DNA of 64,000 nucleotides from NCBI RefSeq assembly GCF_964204865.1, contig NC_135250.1, positions 24,109,395 to 24,173,394 of the forward strand. The letters are read 5' to 3'. Source of the stretch: Styela clava (Eukaryota > Chordata > Ascidiacea > Stolidobranchia > Styelidae). A program made the position numbers and the translations under genes. The notes below the pieces were generated by a model. That model did not search any database. It was given only the letters and a program-made list of their open reading frames with translations, and had not been told where the DNA came from. This document shows positions 2,997-53,756 of the stretch, piece after piece (position 1 is the first letter of the stretch; each line of letters begins with the position of its first letter).

Positions 2997-5900
2997 TCAA
3001 TGTTCGATGTTCGACAATGTTCGATTCCTCATCCACTCTGACAAGCATTCCACAGCGATTACATCAATACGTGGATCAAGTTTGTTTGCAAAAATTCCTT
3101 TCTGATTTACCAGCCAGAAAAGGTCGGCTACCCCGTATATGCAAATTGATCTGATGTATTTTGTTTGACAATGATATGTTCTATCATCAGCCCAAGTTCT
3201 AGTCCTTGTGATGACGTCATTTTCAGTGGCGCGGAATTTGGGGGTTGGGGGAAGACTTCCCGGAACTTGCGGATGCATTCTCTGTATCGTCGCCCAAACG
3301 TGTTCATCCGGAACTAATGTATCTTTATTCCATTCAAAGAAATCTTCTATTTTCTGATCTGCAAAAAATATGAGTCGCTGATTTTATTTCATATATTCTG
3401 ACTTAAAATTTTTAAAATATTATTTGAGAGTCCTAATGCCAAACAAGCATTGTAACATTATCACATATAAATAGTATCAACATTTGATACCCTTAAATTA
3501 AGATTGCTAATTTTTTGGTGCTCCCGAAGTATGTGTACCGAGGTGGGGTACAACCTGAACCCTAACCTGGTACACATACTAAGTTCAGGTTGTGCTCCAT
3601 ATTGGTACACATACTTCTGGAGCTTCAATTTATTAAAGGCATTTTGGAGCGTATCACTTTTACCCAAAAAACGGCAGAAAGAATTGCAGGCCTGTTTGAC
3701 TATCGCTCGCCTGATTGACTTGAGCTCGTCTGATTGTTTATGCTAAATCATCTATCGAGGTAGTTTCAGAGTGAGTGGACATAAGTCAGTCGTTTCGTTT
3801 TATTATTTGCAGTTATTGTTATTTTATTGGGCGTGTTTTCTTTACTTATTGAAATTAGTTTTTGATGGCTTTAACTACCACTCAGGCATATAATCATAAC
3901 TCGGATAACCAAGTAGGCTACTTTCTGACGTTATAGCACAATACAACAATAGTCGTTTTTCCCCTGATAATTTGAACGTACGAAAAAGTTGGGAACCGCT
4001 GTGGTATGGGATTAGTTATCTAGTTAATTCTTTCAGATGCATGGGCGTGGAGGCGTGGAGGAAGCCGGTGAGGAGACAAGCAATCCTCCTGCAATGGCAA
4101 GCGTATTCCGAATATTTAGCCGAATCGTCGAGCCTGGCACATCAAGGAATTGTTTAGTCCAAACAAAGCCAGCTTGCAGTCAACACATTGAAGCAAATAA
4201 TTCAAGAATATCCTACCGCCTATGAAGTATTCGGCGGCTTCTCTAGTCCAGATAAAATAATCAGTTCCCGAAAACATTCGAATTCCATGTGGAGGTGCAA
4301 CTTTTTGCTGGTTAGTTGCCTTTAACCACATGTGATTATGTTTAGTTTTCCATGGTAATGTATCCAAAAATGATCCCGGGATCTTGTATTTGTATTTATA
4401 TCTGCAATATAAAAAAGCACATTTTGGTATGTTTGTGTTGCTGAATTGAATATATATATGTATTAATGGCGAAACGAGGATCCTAGGAGCGCCTATAATT
4501 AAAATTTTCATCGATGACAAAAATTTATTGATAGTTTGTGACGTCAAATGCTTACTGCGTCATAGGGATTCTATAAAAAAAAACTCCAAATAAAATACCT
4601 TCGCTTTTTGTGTTTCCGGCCAACAAAACTTGCAGAAGCCACACTGTTAGTACCATTTAAATTCTTCAAAGCCCGAACGATTTCAAGATTTGATTTAGTG
4701 GGCAAATCAAGTCCACATAGGTTGAATACATAGTTCCATTGATAAGACTTCTTTCTGAAAAAAATTTGAAAATCTTGATCTATGAACTCGTTTTTTTTTT
4801 GTAAACGTAGAACCCTACAAATATTTTTTGAACACGAAATGGACTTATGAATAGTCTTGTTATTTTACTATATCATGGATATTTTCTGAAGCTTGGCTTT
4901 GCGACACAAGAGAGCAATACTCAAGTATATGAACACGAAAGCCAAATATTAATAGTAGTATCAAATTTTACAGTACCGGTGGTTTTTCTTATCTAAGCAC
5001 CCACTTTGGTGGTCACTAGATCGCTGAAATGCGATCGCAGATTTGTCACACGGTGCGCCTTCTAGCGACAACAACAATCTTTAATCATTGAGAATTCCAA
5101 TGCAATGGGTCCAGTATTGATTTTTTTCACGACAAAAAACAACAAGAGTACTAACAACAACAACAATTTATCAAAACTATCGATTGGTTCACTTCGTACG
5201 CAAAAAAACATCAATATAAAACATTCACTAATGGTCATCAGATTATTGCCGATTTTATAAATGAATTACAATGTTAATGAGAACTATTTGATGATATAAT
5301 TTACTTACACTCCCACAAGATCTGTCAAGCAGTTTAAACTAGACTGAACAATTGTCCAATGTGTGTAATATACTTCCGTCATCGTAGAAGCTAGAAAAAC
5401 ATTATCAAAGCAATCTACAATTTCTTTAACTCTTTTCTGAAATGTTGGATCTGATTTTTGATCGATGTGAATGCAATATATATTCTGAGGATGATATATC
5501 AATCGAAGAAGATTCTCAAACGAATAGAGTCCCCTATAAATAGAATGTCGTTGTTTGGTCTTGCTCAGAAATATTTTTAATTTTATTTTGACCTCATGGC
5601 ACATCTAATTCCTTGAACCAGAATAATCGGTATCCCCGTAGTATTGCAACAAGATGGCGGACACCGAAACGTAGTATGTGTAGAATCTTCTAGATATTGT
5701 TAGATATCAGAGGCTGTTAGTACCTGGTCTTGTTCAGAACAAAAGGGGCGTAAGTTAGCGTTGTTCCCCGCCCACCCACCAGCATCCCCCCCCCCCCCCC
5801 TTGTGTATATAATTATTATACAAATTATTATACCATAAAGAGGAAAACTAACTTAGATACGCTTATTATGTATGCAATTGGATAGTTGCGTTCTTCTTCT

Positions 5901-6443
5901 GTCAATGGCTGTGTAATATATTTTCCTTTTGACTTTAATTCTGAACAATTTCTGGTTAGTTGTGATATTCTATCATCATGAAGAAATTTTTGTTTTTCAA
6001 AACGATATTCCTGAAAAATGTTGAAAAAAATAGTCAACTTTTCAAATTTATATTTGTTATTCACTCTTGAGTTTGATCTTACCTCGTCGTTTATCCAGTC
6101 AACTAATTCTTTTGCTTTCCCAATCGCTTCAGTATTTCCTACAAACAACTCATTGCAATTTATTGTTTCCAACATCATTTGAACACTTGGTAACATTCCA
6201 AGATATTTTGTCTGATTTGAGAGAAATTTATCGCGGTAAATCCACTAAAAAATAAGCGTAGTTCAAATAGCAGTCAAGCTGCCCAGTGCAACAACAAAGA
6301 AATTGTAGAAATGAGAAAATACCATTAAAGTTAGCGAGCGGGAAGCTAAAACTATAACTATGATCAAAGTAACTTACTATGACAAAGTATATTGTTACTC
6401 CGCTAACGCAGGCTAGACATAGTAAAAAGTATTTTGTTTTCAT
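2997..6443 (-). CDS. GCNT-like: GCNT-like beta-1,6-N-acetylglucosaminyltransferase (GT14), copy 1, 7 exons
   Basis: Exons (minus): 6443-6378, 6244-6083, 6010-5853, 5533-5309, 4754-4599, 4401-4217, 3358-2997; 437 aa with GT/AG borders throughout. The family (Glyco_transf_14, core-2 branching enzymes) transfers GlcNAc in beta-1,6 linkage onto O-glycans in the Golgi. Visible: an N-terminal hydrophobic anchor at about residues 4-22, a short stem, then the catalytic domain with [16 protein letters not shown] (about 146-153), [32 protein letters not shown] and ADLFWL..KGIFANK. The Glu of PDEH (about 336) matches the catalytic Glu of mouse core-2 enzyme. Length agrees with vertebrate GCNTs, whose coding region is usually one exon; this one is split by six introns. 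Start: the Met at 6443 aligns with the start of the plus-strand copy; an in-frame Met lies 8 codons upstream. AATAAA on the minus strand lies at 2844-2839. GCNT1/3/4 cannot be told apart. Confidence 0.9.
3521..3622. mobile_element. Palindromic ~100-bp foldback MITE, copy 1
   Basis: Left arm CTCCCGAAGTATGTGTACC and right arm GGTACACATACTTCTGGAG are near-perfect reverse complements, with CAACCTGAACC... inner arms. It lies in intron-free sequence just beyond acceptor 3359 inside the last intron of the minus-strand GCNT gene. Same family as copies near 7.8, 8.1, 31.2 and 47.3 kb. Confidence 0.75.
5786..5800. repeat. 15-bp poly-C tract
   Basis: Uninterrupted run of 15 C in AT-rich DNA, inside intron 3 of the minus-strand GCNT gene; on the transcribed strand it is poly-G. 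Length may be uncertain in assembly. Confidence 0.9.
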
Positions 6444-17260: not shown

Positions 17261-20200
17261 ATGGAGATTTGGAAGCAAAAGCAACTCGCAATCGTCTTAC
17301 TTTGTTGCGTCTCAATTTATGTTATCATGGTGAGTTACCTCACATTTCTGCCCCTTGCTTTCCCGTCTTCACCCATGCCACAGCCACCGTCCACCATGGA
17401 CATCATTGTCGTCTGTTGGCCATGTCTGTTTTTAAATAGTATACACAGTTTTTTTTTCTGTTTTCCTATATTCTAACTTTTTCAATTTATTTTTCGGTTT
17501 TATTGCGTTTCAGGGAAATATTAAAGAAAATTTGATGCCACAATACACTACTAGCCAACGTTATCCATACATGCTCAAGGATAATTCATCTCTCTCGGAA
17601 GCAAAACGAACTTTCATAGAGAAAAACGACTCAAAATATTTCAACAATAACACGTTTTTGAAACAGACATTCACAGAAGAAAAAGAATCATTGACTACGA
17701 CTAAGGCAAAAATGGTAAATACAACGTCTACCGTTATAACTACCACAAACACCTTCACAACCACAGAAACAACAACACTGGATACTACAACGTCTATTGG
17801 AATACCTAGAAGTCCTTTATTGAAGAATTTAGACTGTAAAGGAATAATGGACGGAAACAACGAAGCTGTTAAAAAAGCTAGGAGGGAAGTTGCTTTGATT
17901 AATTCGGAGGTAAGGAAATGGGGTTATAAAATTTGCCTCATTATCTTTTCGGAAATATAAGCTTTGCTCACTATGAATCGTAATATTCGTGAATAAATTT
18001 CTTTCTTATTGCGAACATTATTACAATACTTTATAATCGCAATAGATACTACAATTGGCTCAGGTGAAATATAATTTTATTTGTTGTCATATTATCTAAC
18101 TAATATACGAGTGTATTGACCTCTTGGCTTCTTGTTTGTTTCTTGGAGTTAATTTATCAAAACATAAAAATGCAGAATTCCTATTTCCACGGGTTTTTTG
18201 TTTTTCCATATTGTTTACGGATGTATCAAAGAGGATATAATAAGAAACAAAGGAGAATCGCGTGCTATGTATATTTATGTATTTGATCTGCATTTCTATG
18301 AGGACTGGTATATACATTTTAGATACTTCTGTATTGAAAAGAGCAATCATTGTTTTTTACCCCATTTCCAACATTTCTAGCTTGTTTTTTATGTTAGCAA
18401 CTTGAGGAAAGAAAAAAGAAATATCTTTCTGACGAAAGAGTTGCAGAATGGACAAAGAATTGTTCTTATTTCAAAAGTAGAAGGAAGTATATCACTCAGC
18501 CTTTGAGCGAAGAAGAAGAGAAATATCCAATCGCATACATCATAAGTGTTTACAAGTGTGTATCGTTGGTAATATGAAGGATAATGTAAACAATTTTATA
18601 ACAAGAATTCAACAATGCAGTCAGTAACTGAAACACTTGGAAAGTCAGAGTCAACTCCTAGCGTTCCGTTTCATAACTACAATGCTTTATAATCAAAATA
18701 AATTCAAATTTTTTATTATATAGTGCATGCGGAGTCATAACTATAACCATGTCATGTGTCACAGAAAAGTTCTCTTCGACCCTGACTTCGACTTTCGAAA
18801 GATTGACGACTTTAAAATGACTTTAATTTTAACTCCAATTCCGGTTTCCGTTACCGAATTCAAAATCATTGCACCTCGAAAAATTGTCTCTTTTATCTAC
18901 GACTCCGGCTTCATACACCAGATCAAAAATATGTAACTCCGATCTCACCGCCTGACCTACGCAAACCATGCAAAATCATTTCGTAGTCTTTTGGTGGAGA
19001 ATTTCAATTCATGTGTAATTTTACAGGAGCCTTCACTCATTTGAGAATCTTCTTCGATTGATATATCATCCTCAGAATATATATTGCATTCACATCGATC
19101 AAAAATCAGATCCAACTTTTCAGAAACGAGTTAAAGAAATTGCAGATTGCTTTGATAATGTTTTTCTAGCTTCAACAATGACGAAAGTATATTACACACA
19201 TTGGACGATTGTTCAGTCCAGTTTAAACTGTTTGACTGATCTGATAGGAATGTAAGTATTGTATATACTTCATAATAGCAACAGTGGTTTTAACATGCTG
19301 GTAAGCGTTACATAGGCAATAACAACAAAATTTCCAAAACATAGAACCATTCTGTGTCCTAAAAAAATTATGTTCATTCTTAATTATATGGGTGAAAATT
19401 TTTTTTGTGTTGAAAAACTCGAAAATATAGGTTGAAGTTTCACAACTTTTATTCTTTTGCAAAACTAATATCATACGCTGGAAGGTTTGTTGTACATAGC
19501 CTGGAACGTATTACAAAACTGTTGTTTTTATGTTGTTTTTATGAAAATATCTCCGCAACTAATGGCTAATTCGGTTTTAAATTTTTCGTAATTACTGATA
19601 AAATTTTACCTTTACCGCGGAAAAAATACCAGATTGCATTATAAAAGTCTACTTTATATTAATTGGAAAAGCTGAACACAATCAATTACAACTAAAAAAA
19701 TTGTAATAAAATTTTATTTTCAGGAAAAAATCTCATCAATGGAACTACGTATTTAACTTATGTGGTCTTGATTTCCCAACAAAAACAAATCGTGAGATTG
19801 TTCGAGCTTTGAAGAATTTAAACGGTACTAACAGTGTGGCTTCTGCAAATTTTGTTGACAGGAAAAATAAATTGCTCAGGTCAGTACTAACGTGAAGTTC
19901 TTGTGCTTGCTTTAACAAAATAGGTAATTTTGCGTGTTCGTTTTGAGAAGTGTACTTTCTATCGGGGTCTGCGGAGCCCGAGGTACCGCAGTCCCCCAGT
20001 ACCGTGCATACACCGTACATAAGTCGCGAAATATTCTATATTTAAATCCTAGAGACCATCAGGGGGAGGGGGCAAGGTTTTTGGTCCAACGGCCAAACAT
20101 TTTGTCAAACTAAACAAGCGGCCCATGTTAGTGTGACCTGAAAATTCACATTTTATGATCAATATTCACAGTGTTACAAAAGCAAAAGTGGAAATAAGCA

Positions 20201-22385
20201 TCGTGCAAAATCTAAATTTAATCGCAATCTCAACAAATCTCTTTCTTTTTAAGCTAGAACATCAAAATTTTGTTTTAGTTTGGTTGTAGCAGTATCCAGA
20301 GGGTTAGACTGAATTATCAAGCCGGACGGATTTGGCCCGCGAGCCATAGTTGAAAACACTTGTCTAAGGCTTTCATTTTGCGTGAATATTGAACGATTAT
20401 TTATGCGTGTATTTGTTCAATCATATTACGACAACCAGTTATTTTTAATATTGTTCCACTTGCGTCCTGTGCATTACTTTATGAATTTACGTATTATAAC
20501 CCCCGTATAGACGAAATGTCCTCCTCATCCACGCCCTAGTTTTAAATCTTCTGAATGAAATCTTGGTTCAGGGGGGATTTCGCGTTTCGAAAGTTAGGTA
20601 TTAGATTTATGTAAAGCGCGTCATGTTAATGTAGCTTACAAAATGACATATATTAGTGAATGTGACGTATAGCTAGGTATAAGGCCATAAGTTTAGCATG
20701 GTTTTCTGAAACGAGCGAACTTGTTTTTTAGTGAGTTCGATACAAAAAAGAACACTTTATCAAAATTTCCCACCATTTGTTACAGCATAAATTATAGTTA
20801 CCTATATTCTGTCTACATATTTATCAATATGTTATTTGTTGAATATTATTCATCTAATAACAGGTTTAAGTATGAATTCAAACTTCCAACCAAAATAGTG
20901 ACTGGACACGAATGGTTAACTGCAACATATGTTAAAAAGAGTCCACCACCTCATGGATTCCAGATGTTCTCTGGGACGGATTATTTTATTTGGTCAAGAA
21001 AGGCCGTGGAATATTTTATGAATGGTAAAGATTAAGGCTGGGCGATTTTGAATACTTGTTAATTTCTGAAAATTTTTTTTTTCGAATCGGATCTCAAATA
21101 GGCTACCTTGAACAATAATACAATGACGTAATTGTGCTTGACTTTTTCATTTTTATGGCTCTTCTAGACATATGAATTACTGAAAAGATAGAATCCATCA
21201 TCCAGTTTTTCAGTTTGTATAAGTTACCACATCCAGTAAGACACATGTTTTATCAATCACTGAAACAAAAAAAAAACTTATGTCTCAGAATTGCATAATA
21301 AAATTACAAGAGGGGCATGTTTTGGAATTGTCAAACAATTAAATAAAAAAACAGCGATCGAAAAGTTCCAACGGGAGGTGGCTTAACAAACAATTAAAGA
21401 ATTTATCTCGAAATATGATGAATAGAAAAATCTATTTGAAATTTTCGTCTGAACCGATTTAAATAATTTGCTATTCGATTCCAATATTCGATTCGAATTG
21501 CCCAGCCTTTGTAAAGGTTGAAACCATATCTAGGGATAAATCATCATATTTTAATTTCTAATTTATATCCTCACTTATTATTCTCGTTACTTTCTTTTGT
21601 TATCCATTGAGGTAATCTAATATTCGTTTGTAACGTATGTATTTAAACGATTCATATTTTTAGAACCAATATAAATAAAAAATTTACTTAAAATAAAATT
21701 CTAATTTGTAAATGTCAGACTGTACGAACTTCCCATTCACTGACCACTGTACCACTGACTTTCCACCGAGAATCAAAATTAAACATATCTATGTTATGGT
21801 GGCAAATTGGAACCATACTAATTAGGATAATACAATGCTATGGATGTTTTCCTTGTTAATATTCAAAATAATGTGGCGTAACAATTAAAATTTAGCAACC
21901 GCTTAGACACTTTTTACCTCTAATTTTCAAACATGGTTGTAAACATAAGATCGTTTTCGTTTTTTTTCTATTTAATTTTAATTCTTAGTTGTTATTTCTT
22001 CAATGCATTTCATGCAGATTCTAAAATACGAGACTTTTTTGAATGGAACAAAAATACGTTAGTACCAGATGAGCACGTATGGGCGAGTATTCAACGAATG
22101 TATCCACAAGTACCAGGGAGTCTCCCACCAACACCGGACTTTCGAACAACAGAAAGTGATGTAATCACAAGAACTAGAGTTTGGGGTGATGCTGTATATA
22201 GATGCAAGTCACGTTATGTGCGAGCTATATGCATATTTGGTGTGGCTGATCTACATTGGCTTGTGGCGCAGAAAGGGATTTTCGCAAATAAAATGGACTC
22301 ACAAGTTGATGCTGTGGCAACTGAATGTTTAAGTGAATGGTTACGAAATCGTACTTTTGAAAATACGTCTTTGTATAAAATATAA
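17261..22385 (+). CDS. GCNT-like: GCNT-like beta-1,6-N-acetylglucosaminyltransferase (GT14), copy 2, with Thr-rich stem
   Basis: Exons: 17261-17329, 17514-17909, 18398-18555, 19027-19251, 19724-19879, 20864-21024, 22018-22385; 510 aa. Intron phases are the same as in the minus-strand copy at 3-6.4 kb, and exons 3, 4 and 5 have the same lengths (158, 225, 156 nt). This is therefore a head-to-head duplicate, about 10.8 kb apart start to start. Residues 1-23 are a signal anchor. Exon 2 is much longer than in copy 1 and encodes a stem with 19 Thr in residues 84-117, a likely mucin-type O-glycosylated stalk that copy 1 lacks. The catalytic domain is intact: [48 protein letters not shown] (catalytic Glu about 407) and KGIFANK. 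Expected role: Golgi type II enzyme branching O-glycans. The last intron carries a hAT-like insertion directly at its donor. Confidence 0.9.
20050..20365 (-). mobile_element. hAT-like 'GGCCCGCGAGCC' non-autonomous element in GCNT copy 2 intron 5
   Basis: Read on the minus strand it matches the sequence at about 44507-44815: GCGGGCCAAAT, TGATAATTCAGTC, GCTACAACCAAAC, AAAATTTTGATG and TTGAGATTGCGATTA blocks occur in the same order. The ends resemble hAT termini of the GGTCCAA/TTGGACC type but are eroded. Confidence 0.5.
21033..21510. mobile_element. 478-bp TIR element inserted on the splice donor of GCNT copy 2 intron 6
   Basis: Ends TAAGGCTGGGCGATTTTGAA and, reverse complemented, AAAGGCTGGGCAATTCGAAT. 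Flanks are GTAAAGAT (21025-21032) and GTAAAGGT (21511-21518), a 7/8 match 8-bp target duplication. The left copy is the first eight intron bases, i.e. the 5' splice site itself. Confidence 0.65.
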
Positions 22386-25621: not shown

Positions 25622-25706
25622 ACTACTTACAGTACTTTGTTTATTAATGTGCAAGCTTTTTATGTGCAATCTATTTCATATTACTGTTTAGGTTGTTTCA
25701 GTAAAA

Positions 25707-28063
25707 ATGACTGAGTTAGAATATATGATTGCGGGTATATTACTAGGAATATGCTCTGTATTATATCTCTTCTATTTACCCATGACAAGACCTAAACAGT
25801 TTCCTCCCGGACCTCGCGGAATTCCCATAGTTGGAAGCGTCCACTTAATAGGACAACATCCGCATATAAGCTTTGCAAAATTAGCCTCAAAGTACGGAGA
25901 TGTGTTCAGCTTGAAAGCATTCAATAAATACTTTGTTATAGTTAACGGATATCAAGCAATTAAAGAATGTCACGTCCAACATGGAAAAATAATCAGTGGT
26001 CGTCCTCTGAAGTATATGGTTCGTCATCTCATGGGTGATCAGCCGACTGGTATTGTTAATGATTTGAGTTGCACCCCCACATGGAAAGCACACAGAAAAA
26101 TGTTCAACTTTGCCATGAAAAAAATGTCTGCGAATCTTCGAATCGATGACATAATTATGACTGAAGCAGAATGTGTGGTGAACGAGTTGGAAAACATGGC
26201 GAGTGCCGATGAAGCTATCGACTTATCCAACTTACTTGAATGTGGAGTTCTCAATGTTATTTCAGGTCTTTTGCTGGGGAAAAGATTTGATTTCAATGAC
26301 CCCAAAATGATTTATTTTGTTAAATTGAACCAAGAATTCTTTAGGTTGGCAACAGTTGAAAGACCTACTGACAGTCTTCCTGATATATTTCCATGGATAA
26401 CGAAATTTTGGATCCCAAAAAAGATAATTAAATTGACACAGACGATAAAGTGTATCATTGATTTCTGCGCTGAGGAAGTCGAAGAACACAAAAATAAGCT
26501 CGACCCAAAAAATCCAGTCGATTTTATAGATTATTCCTTGATAAAAATTTCCCAAAATTCCGAACTCACAGAAGAATCTCTCATAAACACTGTTACTGGA
26601 TTATTTCAGGCTGGAAATGAGTCGACAACCGCCACCTTACGGTGGGGTATTTTACTGTTATCTAATAACCCGGAAATTCAGAAAAAAGTTCACAACGAAA
26701 TTGACGAAATTATTGGAAATAAAAACGCAGCAAAATACAATGAACGATCAATGATGCCTTACACAGAAGCAACGATGCACGAAATTTTGAGATTTGCTAA
26801 TGTTGCTCATATCGGACTACCAAGAGATGCAGTGGAAGACTTCTATATAAGAGGGCAAGTATTTTTCGTATTCTCAACTTGGTCTTCTTGTATCGAAAAT
26901 AAAGCTTAGTATCCTAAATTAGTCAGTTTGATAACAGAAAAAGTTACTATAAAAGGGATAATTACCGAACTCGTCCAAAACAAGTTTAAATCAATTTGGT
27001 ATCTTCTTATGAAGAGTCATATAATCATCCATTGCATCTGCAATGAGTTAGCATTTTAAAATGTTAATTGCTTATTGCTTGAATTGACAGCAAAGGAATG
27101 GCTTTGGTTTAATATTGCCCACTAAATGTATTACATCCTATTGTTGTAGGAAGAAAGGTCACCTGATTTACTTAACGTTTGAACAACAAACATTCACAGT
27201 ATATGTTAATTATCCGCTGCTTTTATTAAAACATTCTTTAAGTTCAGTTCTAGATATAAAGTAATAAATATGATAAAATTTATGTTACTTTCGCCCTTCG
27301 GACTTTCATCAATTTGTATTTTATATTTCAGATATAAAATTCCAAAAGAAACAACATTCATTTTGAATCTTTATTCTTCACACATGCAGGAGGATAAATG
27401 GAAGAACGCTTCTCAATTTGATCCAACAAATTTTATTGATGAGGTATGTACACTACAAAAATGACTTAATGCGTTCACGATGTAATACTATTTTGTACGA
27501 GACCTAAATCCGTTCAAAATGTATCGGACATTCCTGGTTTTAAAAAATTTCCAAGTCTGTAAAATTTATAAAATACCTATTATATATGTTTCATTCTCCG
27601 TCGTTTGGTGTCCTAATATGTCATTCAGACGGCCATGGGCCTGGCCTCCTTCATGCTGAAATGTTGTTGAGGTTCATATTTTTATATACGTTCGACGTTA
27701 GAATAATGGTATTTTAAAGTGTTAATGTGCTAGCTCGTGATAAAATAAACGGGTCATGTTATATTTTTCCTAGCATATGAAATCAGAAATCTAAAAATTA
27801 AAATTTCAAAAGAATCTCGCATTTTCTTTTTTCAGAATGGTGATTTTTTCAAACCTGATGCATTTGTTGCGTTTAGTGGCGGACCTCGGATGTGTGTCGC
27901 GATTTCACAAGCAAAACACGAAATATTCTTGTTTCTCGTTGCTATATTACAGAAATTTTGTATTAAACCAGAACACGAAGGGGAGGTGTACGACCTGACT
28001 CCACGTCCTGGTCTCTCATTACTTCCAAAACACTATAAATTTCGTTTTATAAAACGATTTTGA
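25707..28063 (+). CDS. Cytochrome P450, clan 2 (CYP1/2/17-like), 3 exons
   Basis: Exons 25707-26854, 27332-27443, 27836-28063; 495 aa, a normal P450 length. Microsomal haem monooxygenase with an N-terminal membrane helix (about 7-25) and a Pro-rich hinge (PPGPRG, about 33-38). Further motifs: C-helix WKAHR, I-helix oxygen-binding motif AGNESTT, K-helix EILR (ExxR), a PERF-like region with FDPTNF, and the haem loop FSGGPRMCVA with Cys about 440 as thiolate ligand. The usual Gly two residues after the Cys is Ala, which many active P450s tolerate. Intron 1 has a GC donor (GG|GCAAGT at 26855): a GT alternative four bases on would read into a stop, whereas the GC-AG junction restores the conserved frame. 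A TATA-like TATATAAA lies at 25614-25621; AATAAA at 28263-28268. Substrate is not predictable; overall fold and loop place it in the CYP2 clan. Confidence 0.9.
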
Positions 28064-41565: not shown

Positions 41566-44500
41566 ATGTACAAAGATATCATTAAAACCGTCGTGCCGGC
41601 AGTTATGCTTTTGCTTGTATTCTCTGTGGTGGGTATATTTGCTTCATCAGAAGTAAGCAATGACACGTCCGCCATTGGAACAAATACAAATATCACAACA
41701 ACAGATACAGCAGATTACGTTTATTACTACGACAATAAACCGCTTGAAACACAACAGAATGGGTGAGTGTTTAATTGAGTAATGGCAAAAGGTGTGGTCT
41801 TAAAAATTTCATATTGGATCATAGTTAATAAAATAAGTTACAGTTCAATTCATTATGGAAATATAAATCACAGAGTGATCACGAGTTTTTAGATTTTTTC
41901 TATGCCCTATTTAAGTGAGGATTTGAAACAAACATAGCGCCTCGACTTTATTCCAATATTCACACCGCAAACAAATCTCAAAGAGCCGACAATATTTATA
42001 GTGGTAGTAAAATTTATAAACTGTTTTTTATTATGTGATCCGTGCCTTAATTTCTCACGAGAATTCAATGACTCACAGTTTTACCAATTTATAATTAATT
42101 CATTTTGTGGAAAATTTTAAAATATTATTTGTTAAAAAACATATATATATTTGCCCATTACCTAAAAAATTTGATAAAAAGTCTATCTCTAAAAATATTT
42201 TCAAATTTAAATTTTTTTGGAGCCTAATTATCAAGAACAACTCTTTTTTTAGGATAACAAAGGAAGAAGTAGAAACAATATTCAATACTAAATGGAGGAC
42301 ATTCATGAAAAGAGAATTTAAAGACAATGTTAATATTGTTGCAAAGGTCTGTTATAAGCTAAATTACTTTTTGTAAAAAAAAATTAATGGAATTTTTAAT
42401 AATGCCTTACTAACAATTGCAATAACAGTCGCCATTAGATTGTATTTTGTTGAACTTATTAGACGAATGCGCTTGACTAATAGTAAAACGATCGTGGAGT
42501 TGGAAACAACCTTTGACGATCCAATATCTATTTATAAATTTATTCTGTCGAAAGATATGAGATGATGTCGGTTAACAAGAGACCTTCGTATGGCGCATAC
42601 TTGCGTCGTTCTCTACGCTCAAAGCCATGTACAGGCAGTCGCTGATATCTCTCGCTATGAATAGAGCTAACGTTATTTCGGAAAGTCCGGAATTTTAACA
42701 ATACTCGTCAACACGGACGGGGAGGTATCCGAACGGTCCCAAAAGAGGAAATTCTTAAAATGTATTCGGCATGGAGATTTTGTTAATTAATTTATCAGCA
42801 TTATAATAAGTTGTTATGTATTTAACTTGATGGTGAATCATTAATGTAGTATGTCTGTTATCCGAGTGAAAATATCTTGAACCGTTCTAACTATTGTTAT
42901 TACGACTGTATCATATATATGTAGTTCACATTTTGTGAAAGTTGTCATATCGTATTATTTAAAATTCATTCCATACTGTTTATTAAATTTGGTAAGCTAC
43001 GGTAAATTGGAAATTATAGTTCATTATTACGATGAAGCTCAACCTAATTCAATGCTGAAATGGAACTTATAACTCACTCATTAAATAAATCATGAAAATT
43101 TTTAATTGAAACAGGAACTGCTAAACATGAGAAACAACTGCATTACCAAACACGATAAATATTGGTATTACGACTACGGTGTGAACGACTGCAGGAACTG
43201 CCTGCGTGAAGATTGCGAAAGGAATGATGTGTGCGTTGCGCAATGTGGAGGTAATTTAATATTTGTTTCCTATTTTCAATATTTATCGATGTAATCTGTT
43301 ATCATACTTTACTGTAGTCCTATTTCCGAGTGTATGATGTGGTATTGGGGCATATCTTCCTGTATTCTAAATCTAGCCTTGTACTGTTTTTTTTTTATTA
43401 TTCGTTTTTTTAATGATAAATTTTAAGTATTTTACATCAACACTTTTAGGCGTCATAGATATTGGGAATTTGATAATATTTGAATAGTGACTTTTGCCAT
43501 CAATTGTAACCAAAATTGAATAATTCGCATGTGATAATAAACAAGATTTGACTTGTTTGACATGGATTTTCCTTATGCGAATTGTTTCGCAATATTTGAG
43601 CCGAGGCAAAATCCCGCTTCGTAAAAAAGAATGTTTTTTAGATATACAGAGTGGTGATTTTATTAATTGGTATGAAATGTAAGGAATCATTTTAAGGCAA
43701 TTTTAAAAACAATTTTTATTATTAGTTAATTTTATTTATCTTCCAATAACAATAAGTTAGACAGACGCTTCAAAATAAGAGGTATTAATTTGATGTACAT
43801 GCTACTCCAAAACGGCGAGACTCCTGACATTACCATTCTTGTAGATTTTTAAGCCCTAGTTTTAGCTTTCTTGGGTGCAGGATTTCAAAGCCTGATTAAT
43901 AGGCTCAAATTTTATCAACTAAGATTTAACTTATAGTTGGTGATTTTACTGTTCAGAAATTCTTCGTGTGAAGGCTTTAGAAGAAGAGTCTGCGAGTAAT
44001 CGCAATTTAGCGGTAAGTGAACATCGTACGAACTTTGACTTTGTGATAGAGTAGTAATTGTTGATAGGGTTATGCTCTAAAGCAGTGGTTCCTAAGTTTT
44101 TATGGCTTGTGGCACACCTTCCGAAAGCTTTAGGCACTTATGGCCCCCCATGTTTATAATTTAATCATCAATGAATATATACAGAATTAACCATTTGCCT
44201 TGGAAGTAACAGATTCGTCATTCCCATTTGTGTTATATCACCATTTGCAAATGTATCTAAAATACTGCATATGATCATTATTTTATTAATTTAATTTTCA
44301 AATATTACAGATAATATCACTGACATTGATTGGGATACTATTTGTAGTTGTTGTAGTTGTATTCTCAATGTCGGCATCCAAATTCTACCGCTTGAGCAAG
44401 AAATACGAAACCGTAAAACCAGTACGAAATGTTCAACCAACGAAAGCTGATGCCGACGAAGCTGCTGAGAAATTGGTCAAAGTAATTTGTCAAACAGGTA

Positions 44501-44919
44501 AGAAATGACATGGGCAAACTGCGGCCCGCGGGTCGAATTCGGCCCTTTGGGTAATTCAATCCGGCCCACCTGATGCTGCTACAACCAACGTAAAACCAAA
44601 TTTTGATGTTTTTGATAAAAGGAAGTTGTTGAGATTGCGATTACATTTAGTTTTAGCACGATGCTTATCGTTTTCCACGTTTGCTTTCGTTACTGTTATC
44701 ATTGTTTATAAAATGTAACTTTTTATGCCACCCTTCCATGGCCGCCAATCTAAATGGGCAAGATATTTGGCCCGTGATCCGAAAACCTTGCCAATCCCTG
44801 TATAAAATATTTGAAATTATTTATTCCTATTTAACAATGGAATGAGCTTATGATATTGGTAACTTTGTATTACAGATAGCGGTACAGGATCAGCAGTGAC
44901 AATTGCAAAGGAAACTTAG
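41566..44919 (+). CDS. Type I membrane protein with one BCMA-like Cys-rich repeat (TNF-receptor-like), copy A
   Basis: Exons 41566-41762, 42253-42346, 43115-43250, 43957-44012, 44311-44497, 44876-44919; 237 aa; phases 2,0,1,0,1. Order: signal peptide (VMLLLVFSVVGIFASS, about 12-28); Thr-rich linker with YVYYYDN; a charged helix-like segment; the Cys module at residues 106-141 with six Cys spaced C-x16-C-x2-C-x4-C-x5-C-x3-C; an acidic stalk; a transmembrane segment (about 162-182, ILFVVVVVVFSM); and a basic then acidic cytoplasmic tail of about 55 residues. The Cys spacing and the aromatic-Asp pair six residues before the second Cys resemble BCMA-type single-CRD TNF receptors (known BCMA spacing 12,2,3,8,3). 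No death domain or clear TRAF motif is visible. Donor of exon 2 (AAG|GTCTGT) is weak. AATAAA at 45309-45314. Confidence 0.75.
44085..44150 (+). mobile_element. hAT-type remnant in intron 4 of receptor copy A
   Basis: GCAGTGGTTCCTAAGTTTTT is a typical hAT end (CAGTGGTTCYYAA), followed by GTGGCACACC and GGCCCCCC; the other end is not found. Confidence 0.45.
44507..44815 (+). mobile_element. hAT-like GGCCCGCGGG non-autonomous element in intron 5 of receptor copy A
   Basis: Left end GGGCAAACTGCGGCCCGCG, right end ACCTTGCCAATCCCTG; homologous in inverse to 20050-20365. It starts only about ten bases beyond the exon 5 donor. Confidence 0.6.
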
Positions 44920-46644
44920 CATTTACGATTACACTAAAGTGCTGATGAAAACCGTCACTTCGCCCTAATGAGAGATCTCAATGAACCAGCACAAGCTATG
45001 AGGAATCCGAGTCAGGTTAAAAATGGAGCAAAAGAAAAGAGAGTTTTTACCGGAGAAATATAGATTTGAAATTAAGTTATTTGACAAGGACTTGTGAATA
45101 ATTTTTACGAATTTCAAATTATAGTAGATTATTGGTAGTAGATATTGATTGTCATGAATATATTCTAATTGATTCATGTTTTAATGATGATGACGTGAGA
45201 ATTTGATGAATTTTTGAATAACTGTGAATCAACTTGACTTGATCAACTTATCTATATACAAATTCTGCTGTTGTATATTATTTTTTGTTTTTGTTTGGTT
45301 TGATTGTGAATAAAGTGGTTGTAATTCAGATTGAGTGTATAAATTTTTAGGAATAACAGTAAAAAAATTATTAACAAAAACTTCGGAAGGAATAAAAAAC
45401 TGAAATTTTAATCGCACGGAAAAAGATAAAATCCAGTAAAAAAATACTGGGAAACACCCAAGTAATAATATGAAACCAAAGTATTACAAATATTTTGTGG
45501 TCAGATTAACCTTTTTGCAGGTGAGGAATAATTATCACACAAGTGGGGAAAATTAAAATAATATGCCACTTTCCGAGTCTTACTCACGAGGGCCGAAGTG
45601 TAGGCTGATAAATATTATTCCATGTTTATCATGGTCACGCGCCAGTGGCGATTGGCAATGAACTTCTATGTAAAACAGTACATTAAAACTTTTACGGTTA
45701 AACTGCCGAAAGTTTTATCTCTATTAAAATCATTAAAAAGTACAAAAAATATGAGACTGAAGTATCGATGTCTAATAATAGAATGTACTAATTTGACAAT
45801 ATATGATGTAGGATTTTTTTTTTAGAGCCGAAAACTAGTTTTCGACTTACTATGCTGATTTGTTTTGAATATATTCACACGGTAGCCAAGTAGCCAAGCT
45901 TTGAAATGTAAAAATTGCAATTTAGTTTAGATTGACCAAGTTTTTAGGTTATAAAACTACAACTTTAATGCCCGAGTGCTTTGCTAGCTAATTTCCATGT
46001 TTCTATGTGTTCAATTTTGATAGACCTAATTAAAAATAAACCAGTTGTTAAAAATGTTGCAGTGCATGTAACCATTGTTTGTGATGGGGAATTTTTGATA
46101 GCAACGAAGCATAAACGACAATGTTAGCGTGCCCCAGGGCTGCTAAATTAACTAATGGAAATAACCTAAAAAACCTCGGATTTTCTCCACATTCTAAGCA
46201 AATTAGTCTGGGTTGGTTTAAACACTAAACAAAATGGTTGCTCTCATAGAGGTGACAAGCACGCAACATTTTTTGGTCGTGAGATTAAGGTATAAGCAGC
46301 GTTGCTTCACCTCAATTTCTGTATTTGAAAACAAGGTATTTTCAAATTATAAGAAAACGCTTTACAATATCGCATGTATATTTTTAATTTATATTTTTTT
46401 GGTTTCACTTTGAAATATGTTGCTTAAATAGGTATAATTATTTTATGCTTCTGGATAGAATGAAATAAAAATAGATCAGAAGACATTTAAGTTCTTACTC
46501 AATCTAAAATGATATGGATCTTTGGATATAAAAAGCTATATCGTAATAATCAGTATCCAAGGTTACACACCTATTCTGTTTTAAAATTTGTCGCAGTATG
46601 TATTCTGCCATTCAACCTCATTTTTTCAGTTTTTTTGCATAGAT

Positions 46645-47220
46645 CAGGGTGGTCCAAGGTTGATGGCCTCGCGAGCCACACTATTATTTTTGATGTGTTC
46701 GCGGGCCACAATAGCGTAACTTATAAATAACTGCAGATTGATTGAATACCGAATTTTACAAATTTGAGATACAGAAGAGTAATTACTAAATTTTCTGACA
46801 TATAGGCAGCATTTTTTGTAATACTGTTTGAGCTGATTGCGACACCCAGCAGGAATTATATTGTTCGGCCATAACATTAATATTTAGTTATCAGACATAG
46901 CCAACCGAAACTAATAGATTCCTCATTCGATTTTCAGTTATTTATTTAAGTCTATTTTGCTAGCATTGATTCCCGACCCAAAAGATAGAAAGCCAACAAT
47001 TTAGATTAGCCAATCACATTATTCAACTTCGCTGGTTTCCTCAGCTAGCCATAACACTAGTCAATTCATTGACATTAGTGGTGTAACAATATATCAAAAG
47101 ATTTTTCTGGGTATTTTTATGACGAAACAACACCAAATTTCGGTTTGTTCGATTTTTCGTTTACCCTCCCGCAATGGCCACGCGGGCCATAGATAATATA
47201 GCCGCGGGCCACATGTAAAC
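46645..47220 (+). mobile_element. hAT-like element with CAGGGTGGTCCAA end, 3' end eroded
   Basis: Starts CAGGGTGGTCCAAGGTTG and has GCCTCGCGAGCCAC, GTTCGCGGGCCAC and, at the far side, CACGCGGGCCATAG and GCCGCGGGCCACATG. The expected right terminus is missing. Confidence 0.55.
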
Positions 47221-47238
47221 ATCGTAAATTTTTTAGAC

Positions 47239-47340
47239 CTCCAGAAGTATGTGCATCAAGATGGCGCACAACCTGAACATAGTATGTGTACCAGATTATG
47301 GTCCAGGTTGTGCGTCATCTTGATGCACATACTGCGGGAG
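47239..47340. mobile_element. Palindromic foldback MITE, best-preserved copy
   Basis: CTCCAGAAGTATGTGCATC / GATGCACATACTGCGGGAG outer arms; inner CAAGATGGCGCACAACCTGA / CAGGTTGTGCGTCATCTTG arms; centre TAGTATGTGTACCAG. Confidence 0.8.
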
Positions 47341-47779
47341 CGACGATTTTTTTAATTCAAATTAATCTCATTCACCACTTCGTTTTTATGTGAGTTAGTT
47401 TGAGTTCACGTTTCCCAAACGGGAAGGAATTTTGCTTAGTATTTGCAGTGGTATTGTGTCGCGTGAAAAAAGCTTTCTTCGATTACATTTACATTCAGTA
47501 TCTTTCCAATATCAACAAATTGATGCGAGGGAAATCTATTTCCAAAAATAATATTTATGCCCATGATTTTACCTATTTTAATACGCCATCGTGTATTCAA
47601 CGTTATTCAAACAAAATTTAATCTAAGAATGGAGTGCATTGAATTATAAATATATAGTTTATTGTGTGGAAATAAGCATTGTAATTTAAATATATAGTGA
47701 CAGGGGATAATTTGCACAGTATGCTTCATAATTCAAGTATTTCATTCGGGAAAACGGTAATTTTATTCTTCAAACTGTC

Positions 47780-48005
47780 ATTAGTTAGACGTTTCAAGCA
47801 AGGCGATACATTCTGTCTATCGTAGATCTCATCCTTGCCTTTTTGTGGCAATTTTGTCTCCGGTGTTTATTTTGCCTTGGTTTGCGCAGCGTGTTGAGAA
47901 TGGATTGGAAATCATCGCTTAGACGCCATTACGGCAAAGGCATAATTGCTGAAATAAACATTTCCTGAACAGCCTAATGATATTTGTTTAATATCATATA
48001 CTTAA
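47780..48005 (+). repeat. Left member of direct repeat flanking the hAT element
   Basis: About 225 bp nearly identical to 48915-49148 (shared TTAGACGCCATTACGGCAAA, CCTGAACAGCCTAATGATAT and others). Confidence 0.85.
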
Positions 48006-48019
48006 TGGATTGGTTAAAT

Positions 48020-48913
48020 CAGGGTGGTCCAAACTGCGTCCCGCCGACGCATTCGGTGCGCCCGCAGAACAATTTTAGCGTAGACTACTAAACCATTGGC
48101 AGATATTTGTATTTATTAGCATAACAGTTTTGATTTCTTTTCAAACTATTCCAACTGGGAATAATCCTTTTCCTGATCCCGATGTCGTGATTGATGTTTG
48201 TTATTATCACGGAATTTCATTGTTGTATCTATAAACGTCAAGACGGTGGCTATTTGGGAATGACGTGCTGTGATCGGTAAAGGAGAATGAATTGTCTTGT
48301 GCAGACAGGAACAAGCCGATGACATGAGCTCGCGTCAAGTAACTCATTTGAATAGACGTTTCGTGTCTTTATTTTAGTCAAACCACTCCTCTATTTTTAA
48401 GCGTTGGCCATGTAACAGCAGGGACCAATCGCAAAGCTGACGGAGCGCAGCACGATCCAGCTTTTTTTCATCGGGATCCAAAATTTTAACAAGGTTGTTT
48501 TTTGGCGGTTTCAAATTTAACAATTCATTATACAATGAGTGTAAAAAAGGTAACCGAGGTAAACTGAGAGAAAACGCATTTACTCCACAACAACATTAAA
48601 CCACAGTGTCTGGTGTGTTTTCAAGTAATATCTTCACAAAAGAATATAATTTTAAGCGACATTACAAAACCAAACACGAGAAAAGATACCGAAAATACCA
48701 CGGTATTTCCCGGGAGGCCATTTTAAAATAACTAAAGGCTTCATATAGTTTCCTTGAAAACCTGATTAGAACAATAAACTCTCATTTTTAAATATATTCA
48801 AAGTGAGTAATTTCGCGATGTTTTGATCACTTTCGTGTTTTTCCGACTGCGGCCCGCGAGACCTCCTCAAAAGTTTTTTCGGCCCTTTAACCTCGCAACA
48901 CTGGACCACCCTG
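48020..48913 (+). mobile_element. 894-bp hAT derivative with CAGGGTGGTCC termini
   Basis: Starts CAGGGTGGTCCAAACTGCG and ends TGGACCACCCTG, inverted termini of at least 11 bp. The inside keeps a decayed zinc-finger BED-like coding segment. It sits exactly between two direct repeats; no 8-bp target duplication is apparent. Confidence 0.75.
48534..48730 (+). pseudogene. Decayed hAT transposase N-terminus (BED-type zinc finger)
   Basis: From ATG at 48535 a frame MSVKKVTEVN meets a stop. After a frame change KPQCLVCFQVISSQK appears, and in another frame EYNFKRHYKTKHEKRY then HGISREAILK before a stop at about 48731. CLVC...YNFKRHYKTKH is the C-x2-C ... H-x4-H pattern typical of hAT/GTF2I-repeat-type BED fingers. 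Frameshifts and stops make it non-functional. Confidence 0.65.
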
Positions 48914-48914
48914 A

Positions 48915-49148
48915 ATTAGACGTTTAAAGCAAGGCAAGACATTTTGTTCTTCATAGTTCTCATTCTTGCCTTTTTGTGATAATTTTGTCTCGGGCGTTTA
49001 TTTTGCCTTAGTTTGCGCATCAGCGTGTTGAGAATGGATTGGGAATCATTGCTTAGACGCCATTACGGCAAAGGCATAATTGCTGAAATAATAATTTCCT
49101 GAACAGCCTAATGATATTTGTTTATTATCATATACTTAATGAATTGGT
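48915..49148 (+). repeat. Right member of direct repeat flanking the hAT element
   Basis: See 47780-48005; differs by scattered substitutions and small indels. Confidence 0.85.
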
Positions 49149-49324
49149 TCAATTAATAACTAAAAGCAAAATCCTTTCCTTTGTCAGCCGTAATTTGTTG
49201 GCCGGCATTTCTGAAAGTAATCTTTATCTTTATAGGAGCTGATACATGTTAAATCAGAATTTCTCTGGCATTATCCCGATTCTGCTTTAATAAAATACCT
49301 ATGTATAACATCATTTATTCCTAC

Positions 49325-49495
49325 ATATCGTTTGTCTGGCGCAGTGGCTTTTAACCAGCAGGGTTTTGCTGCTCCTTATATGATTCCGCTAGTTTATATT
49401 CATATCCGATATTTTTATTTGTGCACATCAGTGATTGAATATTTCTTTGGCGTTTCGCGACCCCCAAAAGGCGAAAACCACTAGTGTATGGGAGT
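49325..49495. mobile_element. Short hAT-type MITE (CAGTGGCTTTTAACC)
   Basis: CAGTGGCTTTTAACCAGCAG at 49342 and GGCGAAAACCACTAG near 49468-49482 are inverted ends; TTTCGCGACCCCCAAAAGG inside is typical of the CAGTGG hAT group. Target duplication not clear. Confidence 0.5.
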
Positions 49496-49610
49496 ATAGA
49501 CATGTTTAGGAACAAATGAAAATGTGACAACATTATTACAAGCATTGGTATGTGGATGTTTTGCTAGACACAAGAGCGATCAAAGTAGTTAACAAAAGGC
49601 GAAAATCAAA

Positions 49611-49975
49611 GTATTCGAATCGTGCTTGATGGACATTGAGATGAATTACTCGAATTGAAATAAATAGTGAATTATTCGAATCGTTTTAAATCTTGATTTT
49701 TGGTGAAGAAATCTCTTCAAAATGCAATTTCCGCATACAACTCTTTTCTTCCTTGCCAGATATTGATGAAACATGTTCTTATGTTTCAACTCAGCGAACT
49801 GACTGGTTGATCGATTCTATATTTTCAGTAAGTTATGTGTTCCGGGAGACCATTTGTAATGAAGAGTCGAATCTAATTACGTCGTTTAAATATTAAAGTC
49901 AAATAACTCCAAAGTATTCGAGATTCGATTCGATTCTAAATTCACTAGGTATTCGAAAATTCTCTGTGTACGAAC
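49611..49975 (+). repeat. Diverged copy of the ACTGG/ATTCGAA family
   Basis: GTATTCGAATCGTGCTTGAT, GAATTATTCGAATCGTTTTA, GATATTGATGAAACATGTTC, CTCAGCGAACTG and a final AGGTATTCGAAAATTC follow the order of the 1002-1324 element. Confidence 0.5.
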
Positions 49976-51447
49976 GGAACAAAGCAAATTAATATAATTT
50001 AACAGCATAAATATGTCGTTCGCCTTCTCAAGTCTGTAAACGCAAAGCCACACCTCCGTCACCGATCCTCACTCATTCTTTTGTTCTTAATTATATGAAC
50101 TTTCCCGTCCTGTGGTTAGTCAATTACGCAATATGTGTACGTGACAGATCTTACAGAATAGGTAACATATTTCAAATATTACGAGGGAATTCTTCTACGT
50201 TTCATTTATTCCAAATTGTATATTGTTAAAATTATGCATGCATCACAAATATTTATACAAGTTTCATAATAAACAAAGTTGATATACGATGATGAATGAT
50301 TTATATTCTCATTTTCAATTTTTTTTGTGACAAATTACGTGATCTTTGCTAATGAATTTTTACTAAACCGACTCTCCGAAAATAGTAAAAATATCATCAC
50401 AAACGAAATTTTGTGAATATTTTAATGTACAACATCATTTACAAAGCAACTCCTCATAACTTTAATTTTTTGAAGATTGTAAAAGGTGAAAAATGTACTT
50501 TTAGCTGTGAAAAATTGTAAAAAAATGGTATTTTATTCATCATTCACACTCACTCATTTCCCCACTACAATTTTTGATATACTTCCATACGTTTACTTTC
50601 GAAAGTTGATAAAATTAGTGATTGTGGCAATCAGAAGAGCATGGTTAGCAATATAAAGCTATATAGCACACGCAAGACTGGATTATTATCGCGCGGTAGG
50701 TAAGCACCATGTCCACTAGGTCCCAAATTCTAAAATTAGAATCCGGAACCAACGCGGAGCATATTCACGTTGATTAGATTTTACAAATTCAACACGTACA
50801 TCGATAAAGGAACTTATATATTCAAGTTAGCTGTCTTTTATAATGCCACACAATTTTCTTTTTTCATTGAGTTGTATAAATCTTTCTCATATCTTTGTTT
50901 TGAGGGGACAGTGAAATGGGGGTTGGGGTGTGTGTAAAAAATTATAATTTCATTTCAAATGGTTAACAAAATGTGCTAACAAAAAAAGTACATTTTTTAC
51001 AATTGTACAACGGTATATATGTATTACTTATACAAACATCAAACATCAAATTCTGTTAACAAAAATGACATATAATTCAAATATTAGAGACCTATCGAAG
51101 ATTTTTTTACTCGGTCAGATTTTCGGGCATGATTGTAAACATTTGTACGTAATCATGGCTTTGATAGCTATTAGGCAACCTTTAATTGAGTTTTTTAACT
51201 TTACGTAAAAACCAAATCTATCAATATTTATTTTGTATTTCGGGAAGTTTTAATTTAGTTGTAGTAATCAAAATATGCCATTGGAAAAGCTGCGATAGCT
51301 GAGACTCAGGGAAGCAATTATTAGATTAGGTCTAAAAAATTGTTGCTAAAGTAAATCGGACGGGAAAATTTACAACAAAACAATTAAAATCTAAAGAAAT
51401 AATACATAAAACATGATTCTCTTTTCTGCAGTCTGGCTTGCTTCACT

Positions 51448-53756
51448 TTACGCATCATGTCCTGGAACTGAAAAGTATTTTTTAATCAGTTTTGTGGCCA
51501 ACATTTTTTTATATGTTAAATTAACAAAGGAAGTGGCATTTGTATTTGACCAAAATACAAATGCCTAATTATTTGAATTATATTGTGAAAACAAATAATC
51601 AAAAAGACACCTGAAGTGTAACGGTCGCCAGTTGCGTCGGTGGTTTTGTTGTAACGATATTTCCTCATGCGATATACTTTACCGCAGAGGCAGGTTAAGC
51701 CGACGGCGAGGGCACAGACACCAGCAATGAGTATAATCTGAAATTAAAAATACCGCGAAATGTAATTCATTGTAAATAGACCACAGAATAGACCACAAGT
51801 TTATTCAATAGTAGTAACGGTAAATTACACAAACGGATGTCTATAAAAATATATATTACATATTAATAACTTTTTTAACTATTTTTCTGCAGAAGTCTTA
51901 AAGTATGTTTAAAACTTGTTCTTACCATATAAGGCAAAGAATTTTCTTCTTTTTGACGTGGAAGATTACTCAGGAAAACTTTGGGAAAGAGATAATCTGG
52001 AATTAAAAAATAGAGCAATGCTAGAATATGTGCTGTGCGAGAAATTTCAGTTACCGCTGAGAAGCAGCGGATTGGTTAAAAATTTGACTGACTGGAGTGA
52101 CGCATCCGTAACGATACTTTAGGACCTTATTTCGACGAGTTTTCTAAAAAAATGGTGGACAACGTGACGGAGGCGTAAGGGATCAGAATTTTTTTTGCAA
52201 AAAAATTGATGCGAAATACCGGGTATCATTGACTGAAAGTAAATTTAAATTTGAAGAATAAAAAAACTTTAATTAATTAGAATTTACTTAAAATAAATTG
52301 AATTAATAAAAAACTATAATTAATAATAAAAATGTTTGCTAGCAACTTTTGCCATCTACAACGAAAGAACATTTGAAATCGATTTGTCTAGTAGTCGCTG
52401 AGAAAAGCGATTTTTACCAACAACAAGTACAATTGCCCCATCAACATCAAGTTGATACTAACAGCATCAATTTAGCACAGGCTTATTTCGAGCTTAATTA
52501 AAGCAGAAGTTCATATTTTTATGGTTATCGTTCTACCTTGGCACAGAGCAAGTCTCATTGGGTTTCCGTCGCATGATGCAATCGAGCAGTTGAAGCAAGT
52601 TTTCATTTCCAGGTCGTAGCGGGATTGTTGTCCATATTTTGCGATGCACTTTCCGTGTTTGGTCACCGTTTTCTATTAAAAGAAAATTACAAACAACATT
52701 TTACGCTTCCCGAATATGTGACACTGGCCCAACTTTATAGTCGGCGGGTTTGAAATACAGAGATTCTTTTGGTGATAAAATTAATTTTACATTTATTACT
52801 GCCTTTTCACACGTACTCTCGCTTTGAGCGAAGAAAATAAACTTCCTTGTCTTATGTTATTAACTGTGGCACTTCATACTAAGACAAACGTGTCAAAGTT
52901 TGCCTACTGGGATTGTAAAATTCAATAATAAAATTGATAAATTATAAACACGAAGAATGTATTTCAAAATGTAACAACCTGATATAAATTCAATATAAAA
53001 TTTTGGTGGTCATTTCCTTTAACGAAGGTCTCTACTCCGTCGTTTATAAGATCTTCGAGATCGCTGCAAAGAAAAATATTTATATGAAGTAATCCACTTC
53101 ACTAAATATTAAAAAAAAACATTAAAGTTTCTAGTAGGTCGGTGAAAATTTTAGAAAAATTTCAAAATTTTTTCAAATTTGGATTGCATATCAAATCGAA
53201 GGACAAAATAACAACGATCAAATAAAAATACAGAAACATAGCATCGCGTATCGCAGTCACTGAGCACGTTCCACGATCATGTGTTCCCATACGCCTGAAA
53301 AATACTGACTGAAATATTGCATACTATAAGAAAATTTAATCCTTTGCTCATAAATATTTTGAGAATCTCAAATCGATTGATCCATAAGTTTGGAAGAAAA
53401 TCGATATTTTTCAAACATCAACATTAATTTGGCAAAACGATCCATAGGTTCATTTCAATTAAATTTTTACTACTTCAAATTAATATCCAAAGAACAAGTA
53501 CGGCTGTGGAAATATTTTTCGTCTAGTGTTTATAGGCAACCCAAATCCCAAATTGTGCTTCCAGATCATCTACTGGGTTTGTACGTGTCTCATTATTACG
53601 ATTTTATGTTTAGGTATTTTTTAATCTGATTAAGATATACACTTACATTTGTTCACCACTTCCTTCATCGTCCGTGTAATAATAGTTATCGTCGCTTGTT
53701 TCATCACATTTTGCAATTGTATTGCAAAGTAAAACAAATGCGAACGTCTTTAGCAT
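51448..53756 (-). CDS. Type I membrane protein with one BCMA-like Cys-rich repeat (TNF-receptor-like), copy B
   Basis: Exons (minus): 53756-53647, 53063-52979, 52672-52537, 51996-51926, 51737-51611, 51467-51448; 182 aa. All five introns have the same phases as copy A and exon 3 has the same length (136 nt), so the pair is homologous despite low sequence identity. Short signal (LKTFAFVLLCNTIA), acidic NYYYTDDEGSGE linker, acidic helix-like segment. The module at residues 74-109 is C-x16-C-x2-C-x4-C-x9-C: the first four Cys match copy A exactly, the fifth is missing and the last is kept. YDLEMKTC places Asp six residues before the second Cys, as in copy A. Transmembrane segment about 135-152 (IILIAGVCALAVGL), then a basic tail of about 30 residues without recognised signalling motifs. 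It converges on copy A, 6.5 kb away. Confidence 0.75.

Follow-up and report, generated by a model that had tools for sequence, protein, structure and literature searches.

Fn14 (TNFRSF12A) is a small tumor necrosis factor (TNF) receptor with a single cysteine-rich domain (CRD) and a short cytoplasmic tail. In receptors of this single-CRD kind a hairpin leads into a variable helix-loop-helix, and the ligands BAFF, APRIL and TWEAK, neighbours of EDA and Eiger in clustering, are bound through a single CRD that touches one ligand monomer (PMC6684607). Fn14 recruits TRAF2 and TRAF5 through the motif PIEET (PMC7072601). In Drosophila, Grindelwald and Wengen have one CRD each (PMC8024323, PMC6684607); Grindelwald is described as lacking the Asp-x-Leu motif of the BCMA/TACI group and as having eight Cys in an X2-C2 module (PMC8024323). 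No tunicate receptor resembling BCMA, TACI or Fn14 was found among the titles and abstract openings of the first-listed papers in searches of an open-access collection. The subject here is a group of four genes, A-D, of the ascidian Styela clava. Two of them, A and B, lie in a 64,000-nucleotide stretch (the window, C1:24109395-24173394, on contig NC_135250.1), and a preliminary description had presented them as a pair of single-CRD, BCMA-like TNF-receptor candidates. The best explanation of the group, plausible and unproven, and one to which we give somewhat better than even credence, is that A-D are tandem-duplicated tunicate single-CRD, TNF receptor (TNFR)-like type I membrane receptors.

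Genes A and B are oriented tail to tail (coordinates without a contig prefix are positions in the window). Gene A (41566-44919, plus strand) has 6 coding exons and specifies 237 amino acids; gene B (53756-51448, minus strand) also has 6 and specifies 182. These models, like those of C and D, are reconstructed from genomic sequence, splice junctions included: all ten introns of A and B are bounded by GT-AG, their phases run 2,0,1,0,1 in both genes, and exon 3 is 136 nt long in both. Exon 1 of gene A (41566..41762, phase 2 after) carries the start codon, a hydrophobic N-terminus that would serve as signal peptide and a Thr/Tyr-rich stretch; exon 2 (42253..42346, phase 0 after) specifies the extracellular stem; exon 3 (43115..43250) holds an entire six-Cys module, residues 106-141; exon 4 (43957..44012, phase 0 after) specifies the membrane-proximal stalk; exon 5 (44311..44497) the putative transmembrane segment (residues 160-178) and most of the tail; and exon 6 (44876..44919) the tail end and stop. 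In gene B the corresponding minus-strand exons are 53647..53756 (start codon, putative signal peptide, acidic/Tyr-rich stretch), 52979..53063 (stem), 52537..52672 (a five-Cys module, residues 74-109), 51926..51996 (stalk), 51611..51737 (putative transmembrane segment, residues 134-152, and a short basic tail) and 51448..51467 (final codons and stop). The six-exon layout, the phases, the 136-nt exon and the exact residues of both modules are thus reproduced as first described. By sequence comparison A and B are homologous (23% identity over 154 residues, E=2e-7 in a single BLASTP comparison).

The pair is, moreover, a quartet. Exon 3 of gene B, searched against the whole genome (376.6 Mb, 379 contigs), recovers itself and two loci 40-47 kb beyond gene B and outside the window, C1:24204527-24204652 (E=1.5e-6) and C1:24209425-24209544 (E=9e-4), though not A. 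Rebuilt from the flanking sequence, these belong to gene C (C1:24203283-24205846, minus strand, 207 amino acids) and gene D (C1:24207373-24210154, minus strand, 212 amino acids), each with six coding exons, GT-AG introns, phases 2,0,1,0,1 and a 136-nt exon 3; the same layout is accordingly present in all four genes, which extend over 59 kb. Exon 3 of C and that of D, as queries, each list the four loci at E<=10, with gene A the weakest match (E 3.5 and 1.1, respectively). The exon-3 queries from B, C and D list no copy beyond these four; since the search scores the best candidates only and exon 3 of A was not among the queries, more distant members may exist. Inside the window there is no third copy: a two-row profile run on 2153 six-frame segments places only A and B above the inclusion threshold. 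BLASTP recovers all six pairs of the quartet, with better-direction E values from 9e-7 (A-B) to 1e-29 (C-D, for which 1e-28 is also obtained). Between exons 3 of C and D there are 13 mismatches at first, 14 at second and 30 at third codon positions, out of 45 each; such a concentration at the third position is what a coding exon under constraint would show, and the more distant pairs have the same tendency in weaker form (23, 19 and 26 for A-B). That the gene models are artefacts is rejected, exons and phases being common to four paralogues. The preliminary description of the two genes was right, and it understated its case by missing the other two.

In a four-row alignment of the module, 10 of 45 columns are invariant (C9, I10, Y19, D20, C26, C29, C34, N37, A42 and C44) and the other 35 vary. 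The six-Cys pattern of A, C and D is C-x16-C-x2-C-x4-C-x5-C-x3-C; that of B is C-x16-C-x2-C-x4-C-x9-C, without the family's fifth Cys. The common C-x16-C-x2-C-x4-C start previously noted for A and B is consequently correct, and it is after this start that the two diverge. The odd Cys number of gene B (52537-52672, minus strand) would leave one Cys unpaired if the family pairing holds. On reading, the codon that B has at the fifth-Cys place and the Cys codons found there in A and C differ at two bases, so the loss is not a fresh single change. Tyr-Asp occurs in all four paralogues, its Asp lying six residues ahead of the second Cys, just where an aromatic-Asp had been reported for A and B. In BCMA and in both CRDs of TACI an aromatic-Asp precedes the second Cys by the same number of residues, and C-x2-C-x3-C comes next; the Tyr-Asp of the quartet thus stands at the hairpin position of these vertebrate receptors.

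The closest known modules are BCMA and TACI CRD2, which the quartet resembles in its six Cys (five in B), in the aromatic-Asp six residues before the second Cys, in C-x2-C and, B apart, in the last spacer, C-x3-C; the four spacers between the second Cys and the sixth, counted by reading, add up in A, C and D to the 14 residues of TACI CRD2. The differences are a first loop of 16 residues (versus 12 in BCMA and 14 in TACI CRD2), C-x4-C-x5-C in place of C-x3-C-x6-C or C-x3-C-x8-C, and the lack of Asp-x-Leu and of a Pfam match. Fn14 shares the single CRD and the short tail, and its PIEET recalls a PIEE in the tail of gene C; the shuffle test described below does not favour the quartet's module as Fn14-like, and the module has no match to PF12191. 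Grindelwald and Wengen, compared by description only, are likewise invertebrate single-CRD receptors, and Grindelwald is also without Asp-x-Leu; its eight Cys differ from the six of the quartet (five in B). The existence of the two fly receptors also means that the argument from rarity, by which single-CRD receptors were said to be best known from vertebrates, was overstated. The genome also has ordinary TNFR_c6 modules, which exceed the PF00020 cut-off in three matches at two loci (C4:6356917, and C16:11021546 and C16:11021967 within 11021546-11022080), with one further locus below it (C4:4300352). They are CxxC-centred, as the quartet is, and their hhalign score to it is similar to that of BCMA/TACI; in contrast to them, the quartet loci are absent from the 24 PF00020 matches listed genome-wide at E<=10.

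Signal peptides and membrane spans were judged by hydropathy (KD19) alone, a basis that supports a type I layout, with the signal peptide, transmembrane segment and short tail originally proposed. Each of the four proteins has one hydrophobic span after the module (KD19 2.38-3.22; 3.22 in A and 2.65 in B), and N-terminal hydropathy is strong in A (2.56) and C (2.06), weaker in B (0.87) and D (1.21). The tails are 30-61 residues long, the shortest being that of B (30). The TRAF2-type motif has the consensus [PSAT]x[QE]E. It occurs in two of the four tails: as PIEE in C, which ends ...SPIEENTV, and as SPQE in D, where it spans the last exon junction. When the tails are shuffled, P.[QE]E arises in C in 3.5% of cases and a motif of any major type in 12% (C) and 31% (D); because motifs are this frequent by chance, those of C and D are suggestive only.

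Several results weigh against reading these proteins as TNF receptors. Neither the four full proteins nor their modules alone match any TNFR family in hmmscan at E<=10 (HMMER filters discard most matches above about E 0.1), so the profile search for TNFR/BCMA-Tall domains that had been proposed as a check comes out negative; PF09257, PF09305 and PF09256 are unmatched by all four, whereas BCMA itself matches all three. Two- and four-row profiles find no TNFR among PDB sequences, with ribosomal S29/uS14 on top, and full-length A and B find no TNFR chain there. The structure prediction suggested earlier for A and B, made with AlphaFold2 on two-row alignments, gives models of low confidence (pLDDT 48.5 and 46.8), with strand-strand-helix-helix in A and strand-strand-helix in B, where the hairpin is placed elsewhere; comparison with 2 chains and with 1 chain brought no structural match. 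The strict Asp-x-Leu is absent from all four modules (Tyr-Asp is followed by L-E in B and C, M-D in D and Y-G in A, with no Leu at D+2), and the tails of A and B contain no TRAF2-type motif. In hhalign the quartet aligns to BCMA/TACI with a probability of only 3.5% (P 0.012, score 14.28). The shuffle statistics, though marginal, count for BCMA and TACI CRD2 in favour of the TNFR reading. With six Cys columns fixed and the others shuffled 2000 times, at two gap settings and with 12 targets, p is 0.0245 and 0.020 for BCMA, 0.051 and 0.023 for TACI CRD2, 0.40 and 0.11 for Fn14, 0.31 and 0.26 for TACI CRD1, 0.30-0.67 for three own-genome TNFR modules, 0.40-0.99 for four other own-genome Cys-rich stretches and 0.07 and 0.10 for S29; given 12 targets, no p value survives correction.

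These negatives have to be read against their controls. Fn14, an accepted member of the family, also misses BCMA and TACI, among both PDB sequences and Pfam models, which makes the negative searches weak evidence; the opposite control is that BCMA reaches the TACI-CRD2 and BAFF-R models and TACI matches BCMA chains at E 0.012. The quartet aligns to the own-genome TNFR modules about as well as to BCMA/TACI (probability 3.2%, P 0.014, score 14.22) and to GCC2-type repeats less well (0.4%, P 0.17); the observed scores are reached by 20/400, 23/400 and 203/400 shuffles for BCMA/TACI, own-genome TNFR modules and the GCC2-type control, respectively. Controls set the scale, BCMA/TACI aligning to Fn14 at 18%, to own-genome TNFR modules at 22% and to GCC2 at 0.6%. 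As BCMA/TACI and the own-genome modules give like results, the similarity leans, on sequence grounds, towards TNFR modules as a class, with no clear preference for BCMA. The label 'BCMA-like', taken as subgroup membership, fails on two counts, the subgroup Pfam models and Asp-x-Leu; what stands of the original identification is the single Cys module and the position of Tyr-Asp, with TNFR membership plausible. Three other candidate similarities are rejected: ribosomal S29/uS14 (fragments of about 13 residues); calpain for gene A (E 0.0065, residues 81-127, stem and module start), weak and unrepeated elsewhere; and Pfam matches such as WD40_alt, DUF6843 and TRAM_LAG1_CLN8, all below curated cut-offs.

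The same evidence can be accommodated by a family of small, Cys-rich type I membrane proteins peculiar to this lineage, for example in adhesion or defence, that is unrelated to TNF receptors and resembles BCMA by convergence. It would account directly for the want of a TNFR profile, PDB sequence or fold match, for the low hhalign probability, the marginal shuffles and the motif-free tails of A and B; it leaves as coincidences the retention of Tyr-Asp and C-x2-C in all four modules while 35 of 45 columns vary, the lean of similarity to TNFR modules and away from the GCC2 control, and PIEE in tail C, and it draws on searches that Fn14 shows to be weak. On balance this family is unlikely. A narrower form of the TNFR-like explanation makes A-D true co-orthologues of the vertebrate BCMA/TACI/BAFF-R/Fn14 branch, which would then be older than the tunicate-vertebrate split. 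The aromatic-Asp position and a second-to-sixth-Cys span as in TACI CRD2 speak for it, as does PIEE in tail C, but strict Asp-x-Leu is absent, ordinary TNFR modules from the same genome score about as well as BCMA/TACI do, and so short a module can probably not support a tree; co-orthology is decidedly improbable. Gene B, and perhaps A, might instead be a degenerating or decoy copy, as the missing fifth Cys, the shortest tail and the lack of a TRAF-like motif in B could suggest. The frames of A and B are intact, however, their splice sites are canonical, and the fifth-Cys codon of B already differs by two bases from those of A and C; this third possibility is improbable.

If the quartet does consist of TNFR-like receptors, it probably works like the simplest of them. 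Each protein would begin with a signal peptide and a short stem, go on to one TNF-receptor-type Cys module that a single exon encodes, and end with a stalk, one span and a tail; it would sit in the membrane with the module outside. The module would fold as a beta-hairpin with a helical part, the Tyr-Asp hairpin would contact one subunit of a trimeric TNF-family ligand, and trimerisation would gather the tails, in which PIEE (C) and SPQE (D) could bring in TRAF proteins and, by way of these, cIAPs. A and B, without a TRAF motif, might act as co-receptors or as sinks for ligand; of the four, B, whose Cys number is odd, is the best candidate for a change of role. Candidate ligands are at hand: partial TNF-ligand-domain matches lie above the Pfam cut-off at four places in the genome, the tunicate ligands TNFSF-T2 and -T3 fall together with EDA of vertebrates and the ligands related to it (PMC12843592), and the EDA cluster includes APRIL and BAFF (PMC7674686). 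It is quite improbable, though worth stating, that the quartet represents the BCMA/TACI/Fn14 branch in tunicates: single-CRD receptors for EDA-cluster ligands would then predate the tunicate-vertebrate split and, in an animal that lacks adaptive immunity, would have been tandem-expanded next to IAP genes of the downstream pathway.

What remains of interest is that the sister group of vertebrates has a tandem family of single-module, receptor-like proteins that current TNFR profiles do not detect. Three TNF receptors are described for Ciona (PMC10923776, PMC4979521), and tunicates have up to 14 TNF ligands per species (PMC12843592); a receptor family invisible to TNFR profiles would help to close this gap in numbers. 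The quartet would also offer a defined test of whether the single-module receptors of vertebrates had a pre-vertebrate ancestor, and it bears on the origin of TNF signalling near the origin of vertebrates.

Stretches with similarity to IAPs are interleaved with the quartet, in the order A(+), B(-), IAP(+), C(-), D(-), IAP(+). They form two loci to the right of the window, at about C1:24173653-24178029 and about C1:24219067-24226618, both with BIR matches and on the plus strand; BIR was matched in 4 of 10 selected stretches, one of them slightly below cut-off, and further IAP exons were recognised by eye. The cIAPs are partners of TRAF2. The interleaving may reflect co-duplication, perhaps without functional meaning. 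Two mobile-element-like sequences were noticed by eye around the cluster: a transposon-like insertion at about 48019-48920 with inverted ends CAGGGTGGTCCA and flanks near-identical over more than 100 bases, and a short inverted-repeat element resembling a miniature inverted-repeat transposable element, with AGTATGTG ends, which recurs around the cluster (about 47230-47340 and near C1:24210500-24211400).

Elsewhere in the window, 25692-28063 specifies a CYP2-type cytochrome P450 with a long first open stretch (PF00067, E=4e-78), one of many in a genome for which 106 P450 matches are listed, many of them clustered. Diverged copies of a core-2/I-branching-type glycosyltransferase, seen by eye, lie on opposite strands at about 2997-6244 (minus) and 17436-22385 (plus); PF02485 matches these copies weakly and below cut-off in 3 of 7 stretches. 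An animal cellulose synthase beside GH6 is a tunicate hallmark, and in this genome a GH6 match over cut-off at C9:16179895 (positions 136-253 of 305, E=1.5e-6) is preceded by about 1.8 kb by an open stretch matching cellulose synthase PF03552 (E=9e-7) and GT2 PF13632 (E=2e-16).

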